A stretch of 64,000 nt of DNA from Leuconostoc falkenbergense. Its GTDB lineage: Bacteria > Bacillota > Bacilli > Lactobacillales > Lactobacillaceae. The position numbers and the translations under genes were made by a program. The notes below the pieces were generated by a model. That model searched no databases, was not told where the DNA came from, and saw only the letters and a list, made by a program, of their open reading frames with translations. Below, piece after piece: positions 31,909-46,271 of the stretch. The stretch's first letter is position 1. Each line of letters begins with the position of its first letter. Location of the stretch: positions 62,001 through 126,000 of the forward strand of contig NZ_BMBS01000001.1 of the NCBI RefSeq assembly GCF_014634805.1, given 5' to 3'.

Positions 31909-32079
31909 ATTTTTTCTTCTCCTTGCACTGTAAAAATAAGATTATCATAGGGTATATCTCTGGTAAACATAGCGAACAAATGGTGTCCTTAGTAGACAAA
32001 ATATGTCCTTTTAACATGTTACTTTGACGAGAATATGATCGATAATCGCTGACTACATTTGTTGCTTTGAGTGCATCAA
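31909..32079. other. Untranslated region between attenuator and NiCoT gene
   Basis: About 170 bases between the leader terminator and the transporter start. A minus-strand reading frame through it lacks a ribosome site and coding character. TATGAT at about 31945-31950 is -10-like but has no -35 partner, so the upstream leader promoter is the best candidate for the transporter. Confidence 0.4.
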
Positions 32080-32188
32080 CACAAAAACACCCCAACTATA
32101 TTAAAGTTGGGGTGTTTTTAATGTTGTCCCAACTATCTACCAAACGATTTTTGTTTAGTAGATAGTCACTCAAAGAACCTACTAAACC
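32080..32188 (-). promoter_or_regulatory. Leader-peptide attenuator upstream of the NiCoT gene
   Basis: RNA segments read on the minus strand. A (GUUUAGUAGGU) starts 1 base after the leader-peptide stop and pairs with B (AUCUACUAAAC) over 11 bp. B within a 15-base stretch pairs alternatively with C (GUUUGGUAGAUAGUU). The end of C (AGUUGGG) pairs with CCCAACU in the 5' arm of the terminator (CACCCCAAC/GTTGGGGTG, 32114-32106 and 32096-32088, then five T). Thus A:B frees C to block the terminator; B:C allows it. Confidence 0.8.
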
Positions 32189-32245
32189 TCAATTGAGAAG
32201 TAGGTAGAGGAGAGAATGATTGACTTGCTTCATTGTTTTATGCAT
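32189..32245 (-). CDS. Leucine-rich leader peptide upstream of the NiCoT gene
   Basis: 18 codons and a TGA: MHKTMKQVNHSLLYLLLN. The 3' end reads CTC CTC TAC CTA CTT CTC, five leucine codons in six, using CTN codons rather than TTG/TTA. AGAGGT stands 6 bases before the ATG. The peptide is too short for a protein and lies between a consensus promoter and an attenuator, as expected for a regulatory leader peptide. Similar elements have been described in lactic acid bacteria as leu/phe leaders; I could not compare the sequences. Confidence 0.82.
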   Translation of the reverse strand: MHKTMKQVNHSLLYLLLN

Positions 32246-35307: not shown

Positions 35308-35892
35308 TTATCCGAAATTTGGTCGCTGCTTTTCGAATTCAGCGATCAATTTTTCATATTTCATCGTGTTATCAATATCGTCTTCACCATTGATAAACTT
35401 TTCTTTCCATTGTGAGTTGATGTCAAAGTGGAAAATATTATTTTTATAAGTCACAGTTTGTTCGGGTAAATCAATTTGAATAGTTTCATCTGCTTGAATG
35501 CCTCGCAATATTTTCCGATTTTCTTCAGGCAGCACAATTGGTAGCAAGCCATTCTTGGTTGAATTCATGTAAAAAATGTCTGAAAATCCGCCGCCAATTA
35601 CTGCTCTAAATCCATAATCCGTTAGCGCCCATACCGCATGTTCTCGTGATGATCCTGATCCAAAATCATTGCCTGTAATTAAAATTGAAGCATCCTTATG
35701 TTCTGGTTTGTTTAGCTCAAACGCCTCATTTAACGAGCCGTCGGTATTGTAACGCCAGTCATAAAATAAATCTTTCCCAAACCCGGTTTTTAAAATATTT
35801 TTCAAAAATTGTTTAGGCAAGATAATATCAGTATTAATGTTGTCATTTGGAATTACAACTGCTCTGCCTGTCTCGCTTACAAAAGCTTCCAT
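35308..35892 (-). CDS. leuD: 3-isopropylmalate dehydratase small subunit
   Basis: 194 residues, normal for LeuD. The conserved swivel-domain motif [17 protein letters not shown] holds the active-site serine and arginine. It forms a heterodimer with LeuC and isomerises 2- to 3-isopropylmalate. It follows leuC by 9 bp. It is the last core gene of leuABCD. Confidence 0.95.
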
Positions 35893-35901
35893 GTTATCCC
35901 C

Positions 35902-37278
35902 CTATACAAATTCATCTGTCGTAATATCAACAAAGTGACCAGCGATTCCTGCCGCAGCAACCATAGCTGGAGAAGCCAAATGCGTTCTTGATCCTGCACC
36001 TTGGCGTCCAATAAAGTTTCTATTTGATGTTGACGCAACATGCTTGCCTGCTGGAATTTTGTCAGGATTCATTGCCAAACATGCTGAACATCCTGGCTCA
36101 CGCCATTCACAACCAGCATCTTCAAAAATTTGAGCAATTCCCGATTTGATTGCACAATTTCGAATGACCCGACTACCTGGCACGATCCACGCAGTGACGT
36201 TGGGCGCTAAATGATGACCTTTCATCATATTTGCAGCAATTTCAAGATCTTCGTAACGGCTGTTCGTGCATGAACCAATGAAAATGTAATCCAAATTAAT
36301 ATCAACTGGCTTCATATTGGGGTGTAAACCAATATATTCATAGGCATTAGCATCATTTTCATCTTTAATTTCTGGCAAATACTGATCAACAGGTGTTGCC
36401 ATTCCTGGATTTGTTCCCCATGTCACCATCGGTTTCAAATTTGATACATCAAAGGTCAGTATCTTATCAAAATCACTTTCATCATCTGTATAGAATTGTG
36501 ACCAATAGTTTTTAGCAGATTCAAAATCTTTTGGTGCTTGTTCACGGCCTTCAATATAGTCAAACGTCGTTTGATCTGGTTGTACCATACCAGTTCTTGA
36601 ACCAGCTTCAATTGACATATTACACATCGTCATACGTGCTTCCATTGAAAGATTTTGAACAGTTTCTCCATAAAATTCAATCGCATAGCCGACACCAAAT
36701 GACACCCCATATTTAGCAATGATGCCCATGATAATATCTTTGGCATACGTATTTTTAGGCAGCTTCCCAGTAACCTTAATCCCCATGGTTTTTGGTTTCA
36801 CCTGCCAAATTGTTTGGGTCGCTAGCACGTGCTCAACTTCGGAAGTACCAATTCCAAAGGCAATTGCGCCAAATGCACCATGAGTTGCTGTATGAGAATC
36901 ACCACATACGATTACTTTTGCAGGCTGTGTTAGACCGCGTTCGGGTCCCACAACATGCACAATGCCTTGTTTGTCATCACCAATCGATGCTAATGGTATG
37001 TTAAATTCCTTCGTGTTTTTGACCAATGTATCCATCTGTAATCGGGACATTTGATCTTGCACATTAAATATATCTTTCGTTGGTACGTTATGATCCATTG
37101 TTGCAAAAGTTAAATCTGGTCGTCTAACACGGCGGTTCGTGCTTCTCAACCCATCAAAAGGTTGAGGCGAGGTCACCTCATGTACCAAATGCAAATCCAC
37201 ATAAATCAGTTGAGCCTCACCAACTTCTCCAGCAATGACGTGTTTTTCCCAAATTTTGTCAAATAGTGTTTTGCTCAT
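35902..37278 (-). CDS. leuC: 3-isopropylmalate dehydratase large subunit
   Basis: 458 residues. The three [4Fe-4S] cysteines are in FIGSCTNSR and [13 protein letters not shown]. Other aconitase-family motifs are [25 protein letters not shown] and [18 protein letters not shown]. It needs an iron-sulfur cluster, which links it to the suf operon 3 kb upstream. It overlaps leuB by 4 bases. Confidence 0.96.
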
Positions 37279-38348
37279 TTTATATCCGCCGATTCATAAT
37301 TTTTTATGTAATCAACCATTTTTTGTGTGACTTCATCGGTCGTCATCGTGCCACCCATATCTGGTGTCACATAGTGGTTTTCAATAATGTAGTCTACTGC
37401 TGCAGTAATTTTATTGGCAATCTTTTTTTCATCAAAGCTTTCTGATAACATCATCGCTACCGTATTCACCATAGAAATGGGATTAGCTATACCTTGACCA
37501 GCAATATCAGGTGCTGAACCGTGAATTGGTTCATACAAATTAGGACCACTTTCACCAACTGACATAGAAGGTATTTGTCCAATTGAGCCTGTAATTTGTG
37601 CTGCTTCATCACTTAAAATGTCCCCAAACAAATTAGGTATAATCACAACATCAAATATTGTTGGTTTTGACATAATAGCCATTGTCATCGCGTCAACATA
37701 GTAATAGTCGATTGTCACATCCGGATAACTTTTGCCAACTTCATTCGCAATTTTTCGCCAAAACTTTGATGTAGCCAATACATTTGACTTATCAACAATC
37801 GTGATATGCTTGTTTCGCTTTTGAGCCATTTTAAAACCTTGATGCATAATGCGAGTGACTTCTGCTTCGCTGTAATACATCGTATCAATGGCTTGATGCG
37901 CTTCCAGCTTGCGTGGCTTTCCAAAGTAAGCACCAGAGGTCAGTTCACGAACGATAACAAAGTCCGTATTTTCAACATACTCTGGCTTCAATGGTGAGCG
38001 GTCAATTTGCGCTTGAGTCACTTTTGTTGGCCGTATATTAGCAAATAAATTAAGTTTTGATCTAATTTCTAATAGTCCTTGTTCTGGACGTCGTGGCGCA
38101 TTATCCCATTTCGGTCCACCAATTGCACTAAGTAGCACCGCATCAGCTTGTTTTGAAACATCAATCGTTGCCTGTGGTAAAGGGTCACCAGCTCGATCAA
38201 TACCATCACCACCAAAAGGTGCATCTATCAATTCATAAGCAAATGTTGTATCTTTTGTCGCAGCATCTAATACTGCCAACCCTGCTGTCATAATTTCTGG
38301 ACCAATATAATCGCCTTTTAAAACTACTATTTTTTTAATGGATGTCAT
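37275..38348 (-). CDS. leuB: 3-isopropylmalate dehydrogenase
   Basis: 357 residues. The decarboxylating dehydrogenase fold has [23 protein letters not shown], the substrate arginines and [14 protein letters not shown]. The NAD/metal region is [20 protein letters not shown] followed by [14 protein letters not shown]. It oxidises and decarboxylates 3-isopropylmalate to 2-ketoisocaproate. It starts 1 base after leuA ends and overlaps leuC by 4. Confidence 0.96.
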
Positions 38349-38349
38349 A

Positions 38350-39522
38350 TTATTGATAACTCACCATTTCTTTTTCTTCAACGACTTGCATAATAACCTT
38401 TAATTGCTCGTCTGTAATCAAGTCAGACTCTTCAGCAACTGATTTAAAAATAGGGAAAATTACTTTCATATCATCACGCGTCACATCATAACCTAAACTA
38501 TTTAGTTTTGACATTACCGCATGCGACCCCGACAATTTACCCAGAGGTAAGGATGCCGTAGCACCAACCATTTCTGGCTTCAAAATTTCATACGTTTCTG
38601 GATTTTTTAAGTACCCATCTTGATGAATACCTGACTCATGGGCAAAGGCATTGCGTCCCATAATTGGTTTATTACCCGCAACTGGCATGCAGGTTGCGCG
38701 TGCGACAACGTCAGAAATGACTTTGGACTGAGCTAAGACAATATCTGTTTCAACATTGAACTTTTCATGACGCACTTGAATCGCTGCGGCGGCTTCAATC
38801 ATGTCAACATTTCCAGCGCGTTCACCAATACCATTAATTGTGCCCTGAATTTCCGTCGCCCCATGCGCAATGCCTGCCAAAGCATTAGCTGTTGCCATTC
38901 CCAAATCATTATGCGTATGAGTTGACCAACCAACTGTGTCAAAACCAATAATATTTTGACGCAAGTTTTCAAAAACTTCACCGTATTCTTCTGGCGTATC
39001 ATAACCAACTGTGTCTGGTATGTTAATCATTGTTGCTCCGGCGTCAATGGCTGTTTGCACGCTGGCTACCAAAAAATCAGGTTCAGTTCTCGTCGCGTCT
39101 TCAGGTGAAAACACAATATCTTGCATATATTGCTTAGTAAAAGTAACGTCTGCTTTGATTTTGTCCAATATTTCTTCTTTAGTCATGTGCAATTTGAACT
39201 CACGATGAATGGGTGAAGTGGCAATGAACGCGTGAATCATTGGATGTTTTGCATTCTTAGTTGCCTCAATAACGGCATTAATGTCATTTCTGACCATTCG
39301 TGCCAAACCGACAACTTTTGCGTTAGTCACAACTTCTGCAATTCTTTTCACTTCCTCAAAGTCTTTCTGAGAAGCCGCAGGAAATCCTGCTTCAATGGCC
39401 GCAACGCCATAATTATCCAGTTCTTTTGCTATTTCAATCTTTTCGTCAATTGAAAAGTTAACCCCAATTGTTTGTTCACCATCACGCATTGTTGTGTCAT
39501 AAAAAGTTACTTTGCTTACCAT
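38350..39522 (-). CDS. leuA: 2-isopropylmalate synthase, short form without the C-terminal regulatory domain
   Basis: 390 residues. The DRE-TIM barrel has FYDTTMRDGEQTIGVNF, the second signature GWSTHTHNDLGMATANALAGI and the H-x-S-G-I-H-Q region (AFAHESGIHQDGYLKN). The protein ends shortly after the linker subdomains. The family's roughly 110-residue leucine-binding LeuA-dimer domain is absent, with a clean stop and leuB 1 base later. Allosteric leucine feedback should therefore be weak or missing, leaving control to the leader-peptide attenuator upstream. A related enzyme (homocitrate synthase-like) is possible, but leuBCD context supports LeuA. AAGGAG precedes the ATG. Confidence 0.93.
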   Translation of the reverse strand: MVSKVTFYDTTMRDGEQTIGVNFSIDEKIEIAKELDNYGVAAIEAGFPAASQKDFEEVKRIAEVVTNAKVVGLARMVRNDINAVIEATKNAKHPMIHAFIATSPIHREFKLHMTKEEILDKIKADVTFTKQYMQDIVFSPEDATRTEPDFLVASVQTAIDAGATMINIPDTVGYDTPEEYGEVFENLRQNIIGFDTVGWSTHTHNDLGMATANALAGIAHGATEIQGTINGIGERAGNVDMIEAAAAIQVRHEKFNVETDIVLAQSKVISDVVARATCMPVAGNKPIMGRNAFAHESGIHQDGYLKNPETYEILKPEMVGATASLPLGKLSGSHAVMSKLNSLGYDVTRDDMKVIFPIFKSVAEESDLITDEQLKVIMQVVEEKEMVSYQ

Positions 39523-39535
39523 AATTTTCTCCTTA

Positions 39536-39576
39536 AATTAAAATCCCGGATTAGTCAATATGACTAGTCCGGGATT
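39536..39576 (-). terminator. Attenuator terminator of the leu operon
   Basis: Minus strand: AATCCCGGACTAGTCA pairs with TGACTAATCCGGGATT around a 3-base loop, followed by TTTTAATTT, directly before leuA. Upstream UGGCUAGU can pair with ACUAGUCA of its 5' arm over 8 bp, giving an antiterminator. Confidence 0.85.
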
Positions 39577-39646
39577 ATGCACTCACATCCTTTTATTCAC
39601 TAGCCATTAGATAAATAACTAACAACTAGCTCAAAAGCTCAACTTG

Positions 39647-39721
39647 TTAGGGTAGTCTAAGCAAGTTGAGGAGAAGGGCTGCGTTTGTTTTGTTAATTTG
39701 TACTGTGGCCTGATTTCTCAT
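39647..39721 (-). CDS. leu operon leader peptide
   Basis: 24 codons and a TAA: MRNQATVQINKTNAALLLNLLRLP. Six of the last nine codons are leucine (CTT CTC CTC AAC TTG CTT AGA CTA CCC). AAGGAAG precedes the ATG at 8 bases. The leucine codons form the 5' arm of a 9-bp hairpin (CTCAACTTG/CAAGTTGAG). With the terminator before leuA this is classical leucine attenuation, as reported for the lactococcal leu-ilv operon. Confidence 0.9.
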   Translation of the reverse strand: MRNQATVQINKTNAALLLNLLRLP

Positions 39722-39752
39722 GTGAAACACTTCCTTTTAATTTAATAATACA

Positions 39753-39781
39753 ATCATAACGAGTATGTCATTTGTCGTCAA
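39753..39781 (-). promoter_or_regulatory. leu operon promoter
   Basis: On the minus strand, TTGACG (39781-39776), a 17-bp spacer and TATGAT (39758-39753). It lies just downstream of the sufT stop codon; no clear terminator for the suf operon stands between. Confidence 0.8.
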
Positions 39782-39824: not shown

Positions 39825-40130
39825 CTATAATCCTAACGCCATTTTAGCGTATCGTGACATTCTATTGATTTCCCAAGCTGGTTGCCAAGTGAGTTCAACT
39901 TTGGTGGTCTTAACTTCAGGTAAAATTTTTAATGCGTCATCAATCATTTCTTCCAATACACCAATCAGCGGGCATCCCATTGTTGTCAACGTCATATTAA
40001 CAGTGACGTCACCGCTAGCGCTGATAGCAACACCGTTAATTAGTCCCAAATTAACGATATCAACTCGTAGTTCTGGGTCAATGACTGTTGTCAAAGCATC
40101 CATAATACTTGCCTCAATTTTTTGATTCAT
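39825..40130 (-). CDS. sufT: SufT/MIP18-family Fe-S assembly protein (DUF59)
   Basis: 101 residues. The DUF59 pattern IMDALTTVIDPELRVDIVNLGLI is followed by TVNMTLTTMGCPLIGVLEEMIDDAL, with the conserved cysteine in MGCPL. DUF59 proteins help mature Fe-S proteins and often end suf operons in Firmicutes. It follows sufB by 3 bases. It is the last gene of the operon. Confidence 0.88.
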   Translation of the reverse strand: MNQKIEASIMDALTTVIDPELRVDIVNLGLINGVAISASGDVTVNMTLTTMGCPLIGVLEEMIDDALKILPEVKTTKVELTWQPAWEINRMSRYAKMALGL

Positions 40131-40133
40131 ACC

Positions 40134-41564
40134 TTATCCTACCGATCCAACCATTTCAAATTTCATTAATCGATTTAACTCAACAGCATATTCCATTGGC
40201 AGCTCTTTTGTGAATGGCTCAATAAAGCCCATAATAATCATCTCTGTGGCTTTTTCAGCAGAAATACCACGTGTCATCAGATAATACAATTGCTCTTCGG
40301 AAACACGTGAAACTTTTGCCTCATGTTCCATCGACACATTGCCATTCAAAATTGTGTTGTATGGAATCGTATCGGCTGAAGATTTATCATCAAATAAAAT
40401 TGTGTCACACTCGACGTGAGCAAATGACCCATCAGACTCGCGACCAAATTTCACTGTACCGCGATAATCTGTGGCACCACCATCATGTGCAATTGACTTT
40501 GAAATGATAGACGACGAGGTATTTTTGGCATTATGAATCATTTGCGCGCCAGAATCTAAATTTACGCCCTCACCAGCAACGGCAATTGATAACATGGTAC
40601 CTTTTGCACCCTCGCCCTCCAAATACACTGATGGATATTTCATCGTCGTTTTTGAACCAAAATTACCATCAACCCATTCCATCGTTGCGTTTTCATGCGC
40701 TGCTGCACGTTTTGTTTCCAATGAATACACATTATTTGACCAGTTTTGAATCGTCGTGTAGCGGCAATAGCCGTCTTTTTTAACAATCACTTCTACCACA
40801 GCAGCATGCAACGCATCCCCTGAATACATTGGCGCTGAACACCCTTCAACATAATCAACATGTGCCCCTTCGTCAACAATAATCAATGTCCGTTCAAACT
40901 GACCCTCATTTTCAGTATTAATTCGGAAATAAGACTGAATCGGTGTCGTCACGTGGACACCTTTCGGTACATAAATGAATGTACCACCAGACCAAACTGC
41001 TGAATTTAAGGCCGCTAATTTATTGTTGGTTGGTTTAACAAGTGACCCAAAGTATTCTTGAATAAGCTCGGGATATTCTTGGACCGCAGTATCTGTGTCG
41101 GTAAAAACAATCCCTGTCTTAGCAAATTCTTCTTTCATGCGATGGTAAACAACTTCGGACTCATATTGTGCAGAAGAGCCGGCTAGCCACTTCCGTTCAG
41201 CTTCTGGAACACCCAAGCGTTCAAAGGTGGCTTTCAATTCCGCTGGCACGTCATCCCAGTCACGATATTTGTCATTGGTTGGCTTGTTATAGTAATAAAT
41301 ATCATCAAAATTGATTTCGCTTAGGTCCGGTCCCCATTGCTGCATTGGCATTTTGAGATATGTTTGATATGCCTGCAATCGGTAATCCAGCATCCACTCC
41401 GGTTCATTTTTTTTAGCTGAAATTTGACGGATAATGTTTTCATTTAGTTCTTTACCCGTCGAAAAAACTGCTTGATAATCGTCTTGAAAGCCTAATTCAG
41501 TCACCTTATCATTTGAAATAGCTGCCTTTGTTTGATCAATAGCTGCTTGTCTGTCTATTTCCAT
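40134..41564 (-). CDS. sufB: Fe-S cluster scaffold protein SufB
   Basis: 476 residues, full length. The conserved core includes [58 protein letters not shown] and the C-terminal [21 protein letters not shown]. The cysteine in VEGCSAP and the acidic and histidine residues nearby are cluster and assembly sites known for SufB. It forms the SufBC2D scaffold on which [4Fe-4S] clusters are built. It lies between sufU and sufT with short gaps. Confidence 0.96.
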
Positions 41565-41577
41565 GCTTGCACCCCTC

Positions 41578-42012
41578 TTATTTTTCTATTGCTAATAATT
41601 CTGCCAAAGCATGCCATGCTAAAGTTGCACACTTGATTCGCGTTGGAAATTTAGTCACACCTAAAAGAATTTGCGCTTCCCCAAGAGCGTTATAATTTCC
41701 CGCTTCGCCACGAACCATTTCTGAAAATTGATCTACTAGCTGAGCAATCTGGCTGGTATTTTTCCCGATAACTAAATCCGTCATCATCGAAGCAGAAGAC
41801 TTTGATATGGCACAACCATCTCCATAAAAATGAATATCAGTCACAATATCATGATCTATATTAAAAGCCAAATCAATGACATCACCACAGGTGGGATTAT
41901 ACTTTCGAATATGATAATTTTCGGTTCCCAACATAGGCTGATAATGATGCGGATGTTGCGCGTACGCCATAATCGTTTGACGGTACAAATAATCTAAATT
42001 ATGCAAACTCAC
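41578..42012 (-). CDS. sufU: SufU zinc-dependent sulfurtransferase
   Basis: 144 residues. The zinc/sulfur-acceptor cysteines are in [25 protein letters not shown] and [12 protein letters not shown]. The insertion typical of SufU over IscU is present. SufU takes persulfide sulfur from SufS and passes it to the SufBCD scaffold. Its start overlaps the end of sufS by 14 bases. Confidence 0.95.
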
Positions 42013-43225
42013 GGTTAAAGTACTCCTTAATTTTTTCTAAGGTGGCAACAAAGCGATCAATTTCTTGACGTGTATTATAGATGTAAAAGCTAACACGAAC
42101 GGTCGCAGCAACATCTAAATAATGCATCAGTGGCTGTGCACAATGGTGTCCTGCTCGTACCGCAATACCTTCTTGATCCAAGGCAGTCGCTAAATCATGC
42201 GCATGAATACCCGCTATATTAAATGCGATTACACCAGTGTGCTGTTCACTCTCTTGCGGACCATAGACAGTCAGACCATCAATACTTTTAAACTTTGGCA
42301 AAGCATAATCAACCAATGATTGTTCGTATTTTGCTACCTCAATCATCCCGATATTTGTTAGATAATACACAGCAGCTCCCAGACCAATAGCACCAGCAAT
42401 ATTTGGTGTTCCCGCTTCAAAACGCCAAGGCAATGGTTGAAACGTTGCTTCATGTAAATCGACAAATTCAATCATTTCGCCACCAAATTGTGCTGGTCGC
42501 ATTTGATTTAACACATCATACCTGCCGTATAGCACACCAATACCGGTTGGTCCCAGCATTTTATGACCTGAAAAAGCAAAAAAATCAACACCCATTTCTT
42601 GCACGTCTATTGCCATGTGAGGCACTGACTGTGCCCCATCAGCAATCATAATGGCCCCGTGTTCATGTGCCATCTGAGCTAATTTTTTAATTGGATTGAC
42701 CACGCCCAACACGTTCGAAGCATGAGTAACTGATACGATTTTGGTTTTATCAGACAGTTTTGCTTCGGCATCCGCCAAGTCTAAAGTACCGTCTTCTTTA
42801 AGATCAATATATTTCAAGCTAGCACCAACCCGCTTGGCCAACTGTTGCCACGGGACAATATTAGAATGATGTTCCATGTACGATAAGAGAATTTCATCTC
42901 CTTGTTTAACATTTTCTACACCATAAGTACTTGCCAACCAATTCAACGATTCAGTTGTGCCACGTGTGAACAACACTTCTTCTCGCCTTTTGGCATGTAT
43001 CAATTTTTGGAGTTTATCCCGTGCTTGCTCATATAAATTGGTAGCACGTTGTGATAATTCATAAATACCGCGATGCACATTTGCATTGTCGTTTTGATAG
43101 TAACTAGTGATGGCATCGATGACAAATTGAGGTTTCTGCGAAGTTGCAGCGCTGTCGAAATATATCAGAGGTTCGCCATTAATTTTTTGGTTAAGTATTG
43201 GAAAATCAGTTTGATTCATCTTCAT
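41999..43225 (-). CDS. sufS: Cysteine desulfurase SufS
   Basis: 408 residues, PLP-dependent. The PLP lysine lies in AFSGHKMLGPTGIGVLYG; VTHASNVLGVVNPI and the substrate-loop cysteine in RAGHHCAQPLMHYL are typical of the SufS/CsdA group. It removes sulfur from cysteine to form a persulfide for SufU. It overlaps sufD by 20 bases and sufU by 14, indicating translational coupling. Confidence 0.96.
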   Translation of the reverse strand: MKMNQTDFPILNQKINGEPLIYFDSAATSQKPQFVIDAITSYYQNDNANVHRGIYELSQRATNLYEQARDKLQKLIHAKRREEVLFTRGTTESLNWLASTYGVENVKQGDEILLSYMEHHSNIVPWQQLAKRVGASLKYIDLKEDGTLDLADAEAKLSDKTKIVSVTHASNVLGVVNPIKKLAQMAHEHGAIMIADGAQSVPHMAIDVQEMGVDFFAFSGHKMLGPTGIGVLYGRYDVLNQMRPAQFGGEMIEFVDLHEATFQPLPWRFEAGTPNIAGAIGLGAAVYYLTNIGMIEVAKYEQSLVDYALPKFKSIDGLTVYGPQESEQHTGVIAFNIAGIHAHDLATALDQEGIAVRAGHHCAQPLMHYLDVAATVRVSFYIYNTRQEIDRFVATLEKIKEYFNREFA

Positions 43226-44396
43226 GTTTTAACTTTCTGTCAATTTCCGTCACTACCTGCTGTTGCGCTTCCTTTGTTGGCATTTTTGCTAATACTTCAC
43301 CCATAAATCCGCGAATAACCAGTTTTCGAGCAACTTGTTCACTAATGCCTCGACTCATTAAATAATACATTTGATCCTCATCAACACGACCAACGGAAGC
43401 GGCGTGGCCAGCAGTCACATCATTTTCATCAATTAATAATAGCGGATTAGCATCACCGCGTGCTCGACGTGATAACATCAAAACACGTGACTCTTGTTGT
43501 GCATCTGAGCCTTGTGCACCTTTAATAATTTTGCCAATACCATTAAATACTAGAGTTGAGCGGTTTAAAATGACACCTCGCTGGAAAATATGCCCTAATG
43601 TATGACGCCCTCGATTCAAGATAGTGGTCACAAATCCTTGTGTTTGCTTTTTTGTTGTCAGCCCAATAACATTGGCATGTGAGGTAGCCCCTTCACCGTT
43701 CAATTGACTAGCTAAGCGGATTATCGCATTGCCATCATTAAATTCAGCATTTTGCCAATCAAGTGTGGCATGGTCTCTCACTTCAGCCTCACGATTAATA
43801 TAAGCTGTTGTTTGCTCGTTAAAGGCGTCAATATTAGCATAAGTTACTTGGGCACCAACATCAGCGATGACCTCAACAACAACTGAAGCTTTGGATTTTT
43901 GATCGCCTATCGTGTGTATTTCTTGCAAAATATCCGCCTTAGCATTTGCACCAATATAAACAAAAATACGCGCAACCAAATCTTTGCCAGAAGCAGCCAA
44001 ATGATTTAGTGTTAAATGCAAAACGTCATCAAATTGGACATTTTCTGGGATATATACAAAAATTCCTGTATTAAATTGCGCAAAATTTTGTGCAGATAAA
44101 CGATCAGTTGTCTTAGTAATGACGGTGCCAATCATTTTTTCTAGCAGTGCCGGGTAATCGATTTTTGCTTGCACCATACTCATCAAAATCACACCTTGAG
44201 CAGTCATTGCCTCGGTCAAATGTTGGTAAGTTGTCGATAATCCACTCACTTCGATACCATTGCCCTTATTTTTCATAAAAAATGGTGTCGTGGCTGTTTC
44301 AGTCGCTGGTATCATATCATCTAGTTGCCACGCGTTATACCGTACTTTGGCAAATGTAGGCAATGGTAAAGATTGTATTGAATGATTATCAGCCAT
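43206..44396 (-). CDS. sufD: Fe-S assembly scaffold protein SufD
   Basis: 396 residues. The C-terminal beta-helix domain resembles SufB (HTLGHIFQRGVILNRSTLVFNGIGKI, DENDVTAGHAASVGRVDEDQMYYLMSRGI). The conserved histidine in AGHAAS is a SufD hallmark. A longer reading starts at 44411, but GGAGG 6 bases before the ATG at 44396 sets the start. It pairs with SufB and SufC in the scaffold complex. It starts 1 base after sufC. Confidence 0.95.
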   Translation of the reverse strand: MADNHSIQSLPLPTFAKVRYNAWQLDDMIPATETATTPFFMKNKGNGIEVSGLSTTYQHLTEAMTAQGVILMSMVQAKIDYPALLEKMIGTVITKTTDRLSAQNFAQFNTGIFVYIPENVQFDDVLHLTLNHLAASGKDLVARIFVYIGANAKADILQEIHTIGDQKSKASVVVEVIADVGAQVTYANIDAFNEQTTAYINREAEVRDHATLDWQNAEFNDGNAIIRLASQLNGEGATSHANVIGLTTKKQTQGFVTTILNRGRHTLGHIFQRGVILNRSTLVFNGIGKIIKGAQGSDAQQESRVLMLSRRARGDANPLLLIDENDVTAGHAASVGRVDEDQMYYLMSRGISEQVARKLVIRGFMGEVLAKMPTKEAQQQVVTEIDRKLKHEDESN

Positions 44397-44397
44397 A

Positions 44398-45198
44398 TTA
44401 ATCCTCCACAAAATATGAGTTCACATCTTCGTCAGTTAACTGAACACTCAAACCCAATTCATCTCGAAGGCCAGCATAGCCTTCAGTTTCCAGCTTTTTG
44501 GCCAATTCGGCGCCACCTGTTTTGACAATTTTTCCGCCCATCATCACATGAACAAAGTCTGGCACAATATAATCCAAAAGTCGCTGATAGTGGGTAATCA
44601 TTAACGCGCCAAAATCACTAGATCGCATGTCATTGACGCCTCGGGAAACAACTTTCAAAGCATCAATATCTAATCCTGAGTCAATTTCATCCAAAATCGC
44701 AATTTTTGGTTCAATCATCATCATTTGCAAAATTTCATTGCGCTTTTTCTCCCCGCCTGAGAAGCCTTCATTGAGATAACGTTCCGCCATTTCTTCAGAC
44801 ATAGATAAAAATTCACGTTTTTCATCCAGTTTTTCAATGAATGACATAACACCCATTTGATCATCTTCTGGACGGCGTGCGTTAATGGCAGCCCGCATGA
44901 ACTCAGCGTTGGTCACACCTTGAATTTCTGATGGATATTGCATTGCCAAAAATAAACCAGCGCGTGCGCGTTGATCCACTGACATGTCAGCTAAATCTTG
45001 ATCATCAATGGTAACATGGCCTTGAGTCACCTCATAAGCTGGGTGCCCCATAATGGTTTGCGATAGTGTCGATTTACCAGTACCGTTTGGTCCCATAATG
45101 GCATGAATTTCACCAGTATTAACGACCAAATTAACCCCTTTCAAAATTTCTTTTCCTGCCACTGAGACATGTAAGTTTTCAACCTTGAGTGTTGTCAT
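44398..45198 (-). CDS. sufC: Fe-S assembly ATPase SufC
   Basis: 266 residues, an ABC-type ATPase. Walker A is GPNGTGKST, the signature is FSGGEKKRNEI, Walker B is PKIAILDEIDSGLD, and the H-loop is in LMITHYQRLL. It energises the SufBCD complex and is not a membrane transporter. Its ATG lies 20 bases inside the end of the regulator gene. The order C-D-S-U-B is the usual Firmicute suf order. Confidence 0.97.
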   Translation of the reverse strand: MTTLKVENLHVSVAGKEILKGVNLVVNTGEIHAIMGPNGTGKSTLSQTIMGHPAYEVTQGHVTIDDQDLADMSVDQRARAGLFLAMQYPSEIQGVTNAEFMRAAINARRPEDDQMGVMSFIEKLDEKREFLSMSEEMAERYLNEGFSGGEKKRNEILQMMMIEPKIAILDEIDSGLDIDALKVVSRGVNDMRSSDFGALMITHYQRLLDYIVPDFVHVMMGGKIVKTGGAELAKKLETEGYAGLRDELGLSVQLTDEDVNSYFVED

Positions 45199-46060: not shown

Positions 46061-46169
46061 AAAAAAGCACCTAACTGTCAAAACAGTTAGGTGCTTAATC
46101 CGATATCCCAACCGTCTACTCTATTTCTGAAAGAAAATAGTAGACGATTAACACAAAATAGCCTACTAG
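46061..46169 (-). promoter_or_regulatory. Leader-peptide attenuator upstream of the suf operon
   Basis: RNA segments on the minus strand. A (UAGUAGGC) directly after the leader-peptide stop pairs with B (GUCUACUA) over 8 bp. B in AAUCGUCUACU pairs alternatively with C (AGUAGACGGUU) over 11 bp. The end of C (CGGUUGGG) pairs with CCUAACUG, the 5' arm of the terminator (AAGCACCTAACTG/CAGTTAGGTGCTT, 46096-46084 and 46077-46065, then T-run). The design matches the attenuator before the NiCoT gene, although the terminators differ in sequence. Confidence 0.8.
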
Positions 46170-46229
46170 TCACATGAGGACAAGGAGTGCAAAAAATGTG
46201 TTGTTCAATTGTGTTGTTATCTTATTCAT
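46170..46229 (-). CDS. Leader peptide upstream of the suf operon
   Basis: 19 codons and a TGA: MNKITTQLNNTFFALLVLM. The 3' end reads TTT TTT GCA CTC CTT GTC CTC ATG, with three CTN leucine and two phenylalanine codons. The predicted transcription start is only about 7 bases before the ATG and no ribosome site is seen, so it may be translated as a near-leaderless mRNA. Its position between a consensus promoter and an attenuator supports a regulatory peptide. Confidence 0.72.
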   Translation of the reverse strand: MNKITTQLNNTFFALLVLM

Positions 46230-46242
46230 AATATTGGTACTA

Positions 46243-46271
46243 ATTGTATGCTCATTATTTACCAATGTCAA
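46243..46271 (-). promoter_or_regulatory. suf operon promoter
   Basis: On the minus strand, TTGACA (46271-46266), a 17-bp spacer and TACAAT (46248-46243). Confidence 0.85.

Follow-up and report, generated by a model that had tools for sequence, protein, structure and literature searches.

Iron-sulfur (Fe-S) cluster assembly is usually described as being under iron, oxygen or cluster-status control. In the window, i.e., the whole 64,000-nucleotide stretch of Leuconostoc falkenbergense DNA analysed here, the suf genes for this assembly are preceded by a short open reading frame with leucine codons at its end and by an RNA whose segments can pair in several ways, which raises the question of what such a leader reads and how it would act on suf. 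A preliminary description of the locus had proposed control of the suf operon by a leucine/phenylalanine leader peptide and a multi-segment attenuator. Comparison with related genomes makes it very probable that the leader is a ribosome-mediated transcription attenuator, which makes the regulator-sufCDSUB-sufT operon sensitive to the level of charged leucyl-tRNA, chiefly that of the CUN isoacceptors. The features on which this reading draws are collected in Table 1.

Table 1. Features of the suf and leu regions and of the related attenuator loci (window coordinates; locus identifiers for features outside the window)
Feature	Position	Strand	Remarks
Whole suf leader element	46271-46065	minus	promoter, leader ORF, RNA segments A-B-C-D-E, intrinsic terminator at its end
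Sigma-70 promoter TTGACA-17-TACAAT	46243..46271	minus	near-consensus; -35/-10 motif read
Leader ORF MNKITTQLNNTFFALLVLM, 19 codons	46170..46229 (ATG 46229, stop 46170)	minus	intact in 16 species
Segment A, TAGTAGGC (UAGUAGGC)	46161..46168	minus	partners: B, or control-codon segment
Segment B, GTCTACTA (GUCUACUA)	46138..46145	minus	partners: A or C
Segment C, GTAGACGGTTGGG (GUAGACGGUUGGG)	46107..46119	minus	partners: B, or D (terminator 5′ arm)
Segment D, CCTAACTG (CCUAACUG)	46084-46091	minus	5′ arm within terminator
Intrinsic terminator D:E	46065..46096	minus	14 bp, loop 4, U-run; stem covaries
RRNPP/PlcR-like HTH regulator, 287 aa	45179..46042	minus	first gene past terminator; Pfam HTH_3 just above cut-off; model matches PlcR, ComR, Rgg2 folds
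sufC	44398..45198	minus	TIGR01978; overlapped by regulator gene
sufD	43206..44411	minus	TIGR01981
sufS	41999..43225	minus	TIGR01979
sufU	41578..42012	minus	TIGR01994
sufB	40134..41564	minus	TIGR01980
SufT-like Fe-S assembly protein	39825..40130	minus	PF01883
leu operon control region	39542..39781	minus	promoter TTGACG-17-TATGAT; terminator-like hairpin before leuA
Leu leader peptide MRNQATVQINKTNAALLLNLLRLP of leu operon	39647-39721	minus	inside leu control region
leuA, leuB, leuC (Fe-S enzyme), leuD	35308..39522	minus	leuABC by family models; leuD by position and between-species similarity
Second Leu attenuator, peptide MHKTMKQVNHSLLYLLLN	32076..32212; ORF 32245-32189	minus	R1 E 1.8e-20; RNA-only R2 E 6e-15
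NicO-type Ni/Co transporter gene	31908-30874	minus	PF03824; behind second Leu attenuator
PTS_EIIC_2-like loci	L129, L130, L138-L141, L143, L144, L153-L157, L159, L161, L163, L165, L168, L170, L171		

The promoter, the 19-codon frame with its CTC CTT GTC CTC run, the mutually exclusive pairings of A, B, C and the terminator, and the position of A directly past the stop codon had all been pointed out in the preliminary description, and each is borne out. Of 19 Leuconostoc genomes searched with a model of the element, 17 carry suf, and each of the 17 has the element 5′ of its regulator-suf operon; 16 leaders were read from end to end. The 17-nt promoter spacer recurs in 16/16, and the open reading frame is intact in 16/16 while the peptide sequence drifts, as exemplified by MNKKIKKLNNILIILLLN, MKITIKKSNNFAIVNLLLIC, MNNTYQPNNQNNILVLLVITR, MAMKYIKQLKKQLNLLIS and MTKTQQRIHKLLSLRLMG. 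In the window, the frame closes with CTC CTT GTC CTC ATG TGA, the control codons CTC CTT (GTC) CTC lying at 46187-46176, and segment A begins 1 nt past the stop codon; in all 16 leaders read, A lies at the stop codon or just past it. The C:D helix of the window leader has 8 bp, 2 of them G-U. The leader RNA of the window folds better than 200/200 dinucleotide shuffles (z -4.95). Four mutually exclusive helices in a chain are reached by 104/1000 shuffles of the single window sequence and are thus not rare, so that the claim of a switch rests on conservation in 17 genomes and on the pair statistics.

The codons at the end of the peptide point to leucine as the signal. Among the last nine codons of the 16 peptides, 50 of 144 encode leucine, compared with 7.7% in the window genes, and each peptide has 2-4 leucine codons in this stretch (16/16 species); p-values for this enrichment are overstated, the species being related and not independent, and the contrast within peptides is plain. 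CUN codons, a rare class in this genome, make up 49/50 of these leucine codons, as against 131/440 leucine codons in the window genes and 1/8 in the N-terminal halves of these peptides. The leucine part of the earlier leucine/phenylalanine assignment therefore stands, with the codons kept in 16/16 leaders, while the phenylalanine part does not. Near the peptide end, phenylalanine is confined to the window species and its closest relative, except for one Phe in two further leaders, and phenylalanine sensing was rejected because Phe codons are not conserved across leaders.

Could the attenuator read branched-chain amino acids in general, or another ribosome-stalling signal, rather than leucine specifically? 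Isoleucine and valine together account for 41/144 of the last nine codons, and some peptides are mixed, such as NVLIILLIN and ILVLLVITR. In one genome (G112), a related leader with mainly Ile and Val codons precedes the regulator and a SufT-like gene and lies beside ilvD. However, leucine is the only residue found at least twice in every peptide, Ile and Val are scarce in the ends KKQLNLLIS (L. citreum), ISARLLMKD (G007) and KLLSLRLMG (L. holzapfelii), and the CUN codon bias is specific to leucine. The broader reading is thus unlikely.

The leucine-reading attenuator is further supported by the conservation of its alternative pairings. Over the 16 suf leaders, A:B plus C:D are paired in 96.1% of cells, against 24-47% in slid controls. 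Covariation of these helices within the 16 leaders is modest, with a score reached by 45/500 shuffles, because each of the segments has to match two partners; among suf leaders, A:B and B:C vary little. B:C plus D:E are paired in 96.5% of cells in the same set, with strong covariation. In a larger set of 47 related leaders, whose alignment was fitted to B:C and D:E only and not to A:B and C:D, A:B plus C:D are 89.4% paired with a covariation of 0.226 versus 0.156 in shuffles (0/500), and B:C plus D:E are 98.0% paired with a covariation of 0.602 versus 0.220 (0/500). Eight A:B/C:D pairs show double changes among the 47 leaders, and the C:D pair 123-150 is G-U, G-C or A-U depending on species and class. 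Alignment of the leader across the genus, suggested earlier as a check on A:B, B:C and C:D, thus finds these pairings conserved, with compensatory changes in the 47 leaders, and the leucine reading and the switching logic both survive comparison. Constrained energies put the two states near one another, at a median absolute difference of 2.8 kcal/mol among suf leaders (-19.0 versus -23.5 in the window). At equilibrium, B:C is deeper than A:B plus C:D in most leaders by these energies, so that the switch would have to work co-transcriptionally, by timing.

The leader thus combines control codons at the end of the peptide, an intrinsic terminator ahead of the first gene, an exclusive antiterminator pairing and a segment A placed so as to be masked at the stop codon. 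Its predicted action resembles that of a classical leader-peptide attenuator to which further alternating segments have been added. When leucine is sufficient, the lead ribosome would reach the stop codon and mask A, the TGA plus 9 nt extending exactly to the end of A; the size of the ribosome footprint at a stop codon is established knowledge. With A masked, B:C would form and leave D free for E, and transcription would end. When Leu-tRNA is short, the ribosome would stall at the CUN codons, upstream of A; A, being free, would take B once B is made, C:D would form, the terminator would be blocked and suf would be transcribed. If the leader is wholly untranslated, the control-codon segment would probably pair with A, leaving B free for C and restoring termination, which corrects the scheme first proposed. 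A hairpin joining the control-codon segment to A is predicted for each of the leaders, with little covariation behind it.

Translation of the leader is the weakest step of this mechanism in the window species. Only 13 nt separate the end of the -10 box from the ATG of the window leader, so that the transcript would be nearly leaderless, and this very short 5′ region has no Shine-Dalgarno site. L. pseudomesenteroides shares the 13-nt distance with the window species; in the other species, it is 34-48 nt.

The proposed control of the suf operon holds in that the element stands 5′ of the operon in 17 genomes, with the amendment that its first gene is the regulator gene, which overlaps sufC. The regulator of the window shares 93% identity with its L. 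pseudomesenteroides counterpart. The structure predicted for the window protein (mean pLDDT 85.6) has its best fold matches in PlcR, ComR, Rgg2 and PrgX, with a TM-score of about 0.54 and 16% identity to PlcR. Proteins of this type bind short peptides, and the question therefore arises whether the leader peptide is a ligand of the regulator. The short open reading frame could then encode a signalling peptide, secreted or intracellular, that acts on the adjoining RRNPP-type regulator, in the manner of PapR/PlcR or ComS/ComR, the RNA structure being only a partial terminator. Besides the fold of the regulator, which places a receptor of the right kind beside a peptide gene, the polar start and hydrophobic end of the peptide would suit such a role. 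Yet a pheromone would be expected to keep its C-terminus, and the C-terminal residues vary (M, T, N, S, IC, LR, TR, KD, SV, MG), whereas the leucine codons and their distance to A are kept across species. Peptide and receptor also do not travel together: the leaders of the NicO, EIIC-like and brnQ regions show no such regulator in the stretches examined, and L. fallax has the regulator without the leader. Since it would moreover leave the conserved exclusive pairings unexplained, a pheromone gene is very improbable here. A peptide with two jobs, reading leucyl-tRNA for attenuation and serving, once released, as a hydrophobic ligand of the PlcR/ComR-like regulator, would mean that translation of the leader in leucine-replete cells also signals through the regulator protein; this combination is weakened by the same variable C-termini and by L. 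fallax, and has little probability. Finally, a constitutive terminator that yields a small RNA, with suf transcribed from a downstream promoter, is hardly credible: the 10-of-12 promoter match over the terminator (46081-46054) needs the loop TTTTGACAG, which is absent in other species except the nearest relative, and this proposal, to which a weak match of the terminator to the Streptococcus sRNA SpF01, below threshold, might be added, leaves the conserved open reading frame, the leucine codons and the A:B and C:D pairings unexplained.

Why would Fe-S cluster assembly follow leucine, as the attenuator reading implies? The likely reason is that leucine synthesis depends on the [4Fe-4S] enzyme LeuCD, which would be among the few Fe-S clients of these cells. 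The clients surveyed in Leuconostoc were leuC, ilvD and one radical-SAM protein. Both sufB and leuC are present in 17 of the 19 Leuconostoc genomes and absent from the same 2; the radical-SAM protein, of about 200 aa, occurs in the same 17 genomes, and ilvD in six of the 19. Because suf and leuC come and go together, wiring to leucine makes sense if leucine synthesis is the main demand for clusters. At the level of the family (101 genomes), sufC is found in 22/23 genomes with leuC versus 53/78 without it. In L. fallax, the regulator-suf operon is present, and leuC and the leader are both absent. The suf element is a unit separate from the leu operon, since leuA is served by a promoter, a Leu leader peptide and a terminator-like hairpin of its own; a Leu-rich leader precedes leuA in 10 named Leuconostoc.

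Two other genera arrive at a similar coupling, in which suf adjoins leu and a T-box or a Leu leader peptide stands ahead of both. In two genomes (G072 and G106), leuABCD-sufCDSUB-sufT form one cluster in which leuD and sufC are about 24 nt apart, preceded by a T-box (RF00230) match of 77.7 and 80.5 bits, E about 1e-17, which is below the Rfam cut-off (L184, L185). In another (G036), leuCD lie directly 5′ of suf, behind the Leu peptide MSIKINAKTTLLNLLL, read by eye. In the same genome (L180, 7571-8506), the start of leuA is fused in frame to the end of leuC, and leuD and suf follow; leuA and leuB look to have been lost while the Leu leader stayed. The coupling is not universal, since in three further genomes (G024, G086 and G079) suf adjoins leu with a Leu leader before leu only and none before suf. 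In Leuconostoc, a genus of food bacteria, Fe-S assembly genes appear to be tied to an amino acid via tRNA charging nearly genus-wide, which would make suf a case of cofactor supply set by the need of one pathway.

The suf element belongs to a set of homologous attenuators, a second of which lies within the window, ahead of a NicO-type gene (Table 1); one may guess that the metal need of a leucine enzyme is the reason for placing NicO behind a Leu attenuator. A model built from the RNA past the stop codon only, with the peptide left out (R2), finds the same set as R1, i.e., the NicO, EIIC-like and brnQ-region paralogues carrying Leu or Ile peptides, so that the evidence from the RNA does not depend on that from the peptide. 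Across half a megabase surrounding the named Leuconostoc suf loci and the relatives of the regulator in other genera, the ten Leuconostoc suf leaders are the only convincing R2 matches. Weak R1 matches in other genera (E 0.001-0.05) were treated as chance; the few inspected are tRNA genes or unrelated. Homologous leaders also precede a 380-aa PTS_EIIC_2-like protein, with peptides ending LLLNLLLI, and in several species a gene for a Peripla_BP_6-type binding protein lies downstream of the PTS_EIIC_2-like gene. Rather than carrying sugars, this protein may be a leucine-linked transporter. It occurs as an orphan with its Leu attenuator in nearly all Leuconostoc and in two other genera, and also in the two species that lack both suf and leuC. 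Around brnQ, a gene that we presume to be such from its sequence rather than from a family scan, the related leaders MTTSVNTTTQIIISIIIIS and MRNFSGTTTQIIISIIIIK have Ile in place of Leu. One of these Ile leaders (L145) stands before a BrnQ-like gene, and the other (L162) before a gene of 263 aa followed by a BrnQ-like gene. In one genome (G009), the same NicO gene start is present at two places, one with a suf-like leader (L131, L160 being the two loci) and the other with a decayed leader that has lost its start codon.

The leader RNA is a family absent from Rfam: full-library scans of the window and the leader loci, e-value mode included, gave no real match, and T-box RF00230 has no match in or near the window element. 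A search with the published Leu/phe leader covariance model (RF01743), also proposed in the preliminary description, turned up nothing around the element when E was relaxed to 5. In the open-access library searched, no paper describes control of suf by amino-acid attenuation. The attenuators of the enteric trp, his and leu operons have control codons near the stop codon, mutually exclusive helices and an intrinsic terminator, all of which they share with the suf leader; they alternate 1:2, 2:3 and 3:4, whereas the suf leader would alternate control codons:A, A:B, B:C, C:D and D:E. T-boxes read tRNA charging with no leader peptide involved, so that they and the suf leader would sense the same signal, the latter by means of a peptide. 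The RF01743 leader, tabulated for Lactococcus lactis only (PMC2864571), is likewise an amino-acid attenuator of a lactic acid bacterium, unlike the suf leaders as judged by model match. The ilv-leu leader of S. aureus also has a Leu-codon-rich peptide, a terminator and a proposed antiterminator, and leucine depletion was shown by experiment to raise expression (PMC5794164); that attenuator controls branched-chain amino acid biosynthesis genes, not Fe-S assembly, and the likeness drawn here is one of architecture. Coupling of leucine synthesis to iron metabolism is described for LeuB/Leu3 of Aspergillus (PMC6221358), a fungal transcription factor whose mechanism is unrelated. In bacteria with SufR, e.g., C. 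glutamicum, an ArsR-type Fe-S protein represses suf (PMC11995493), and a regulator gene likewise accompanies the suf genes; in Leuconostoc, the accompanying protein is of the RRNPP type and its gene is preceded by what is very probably an amino-acid attenuator.
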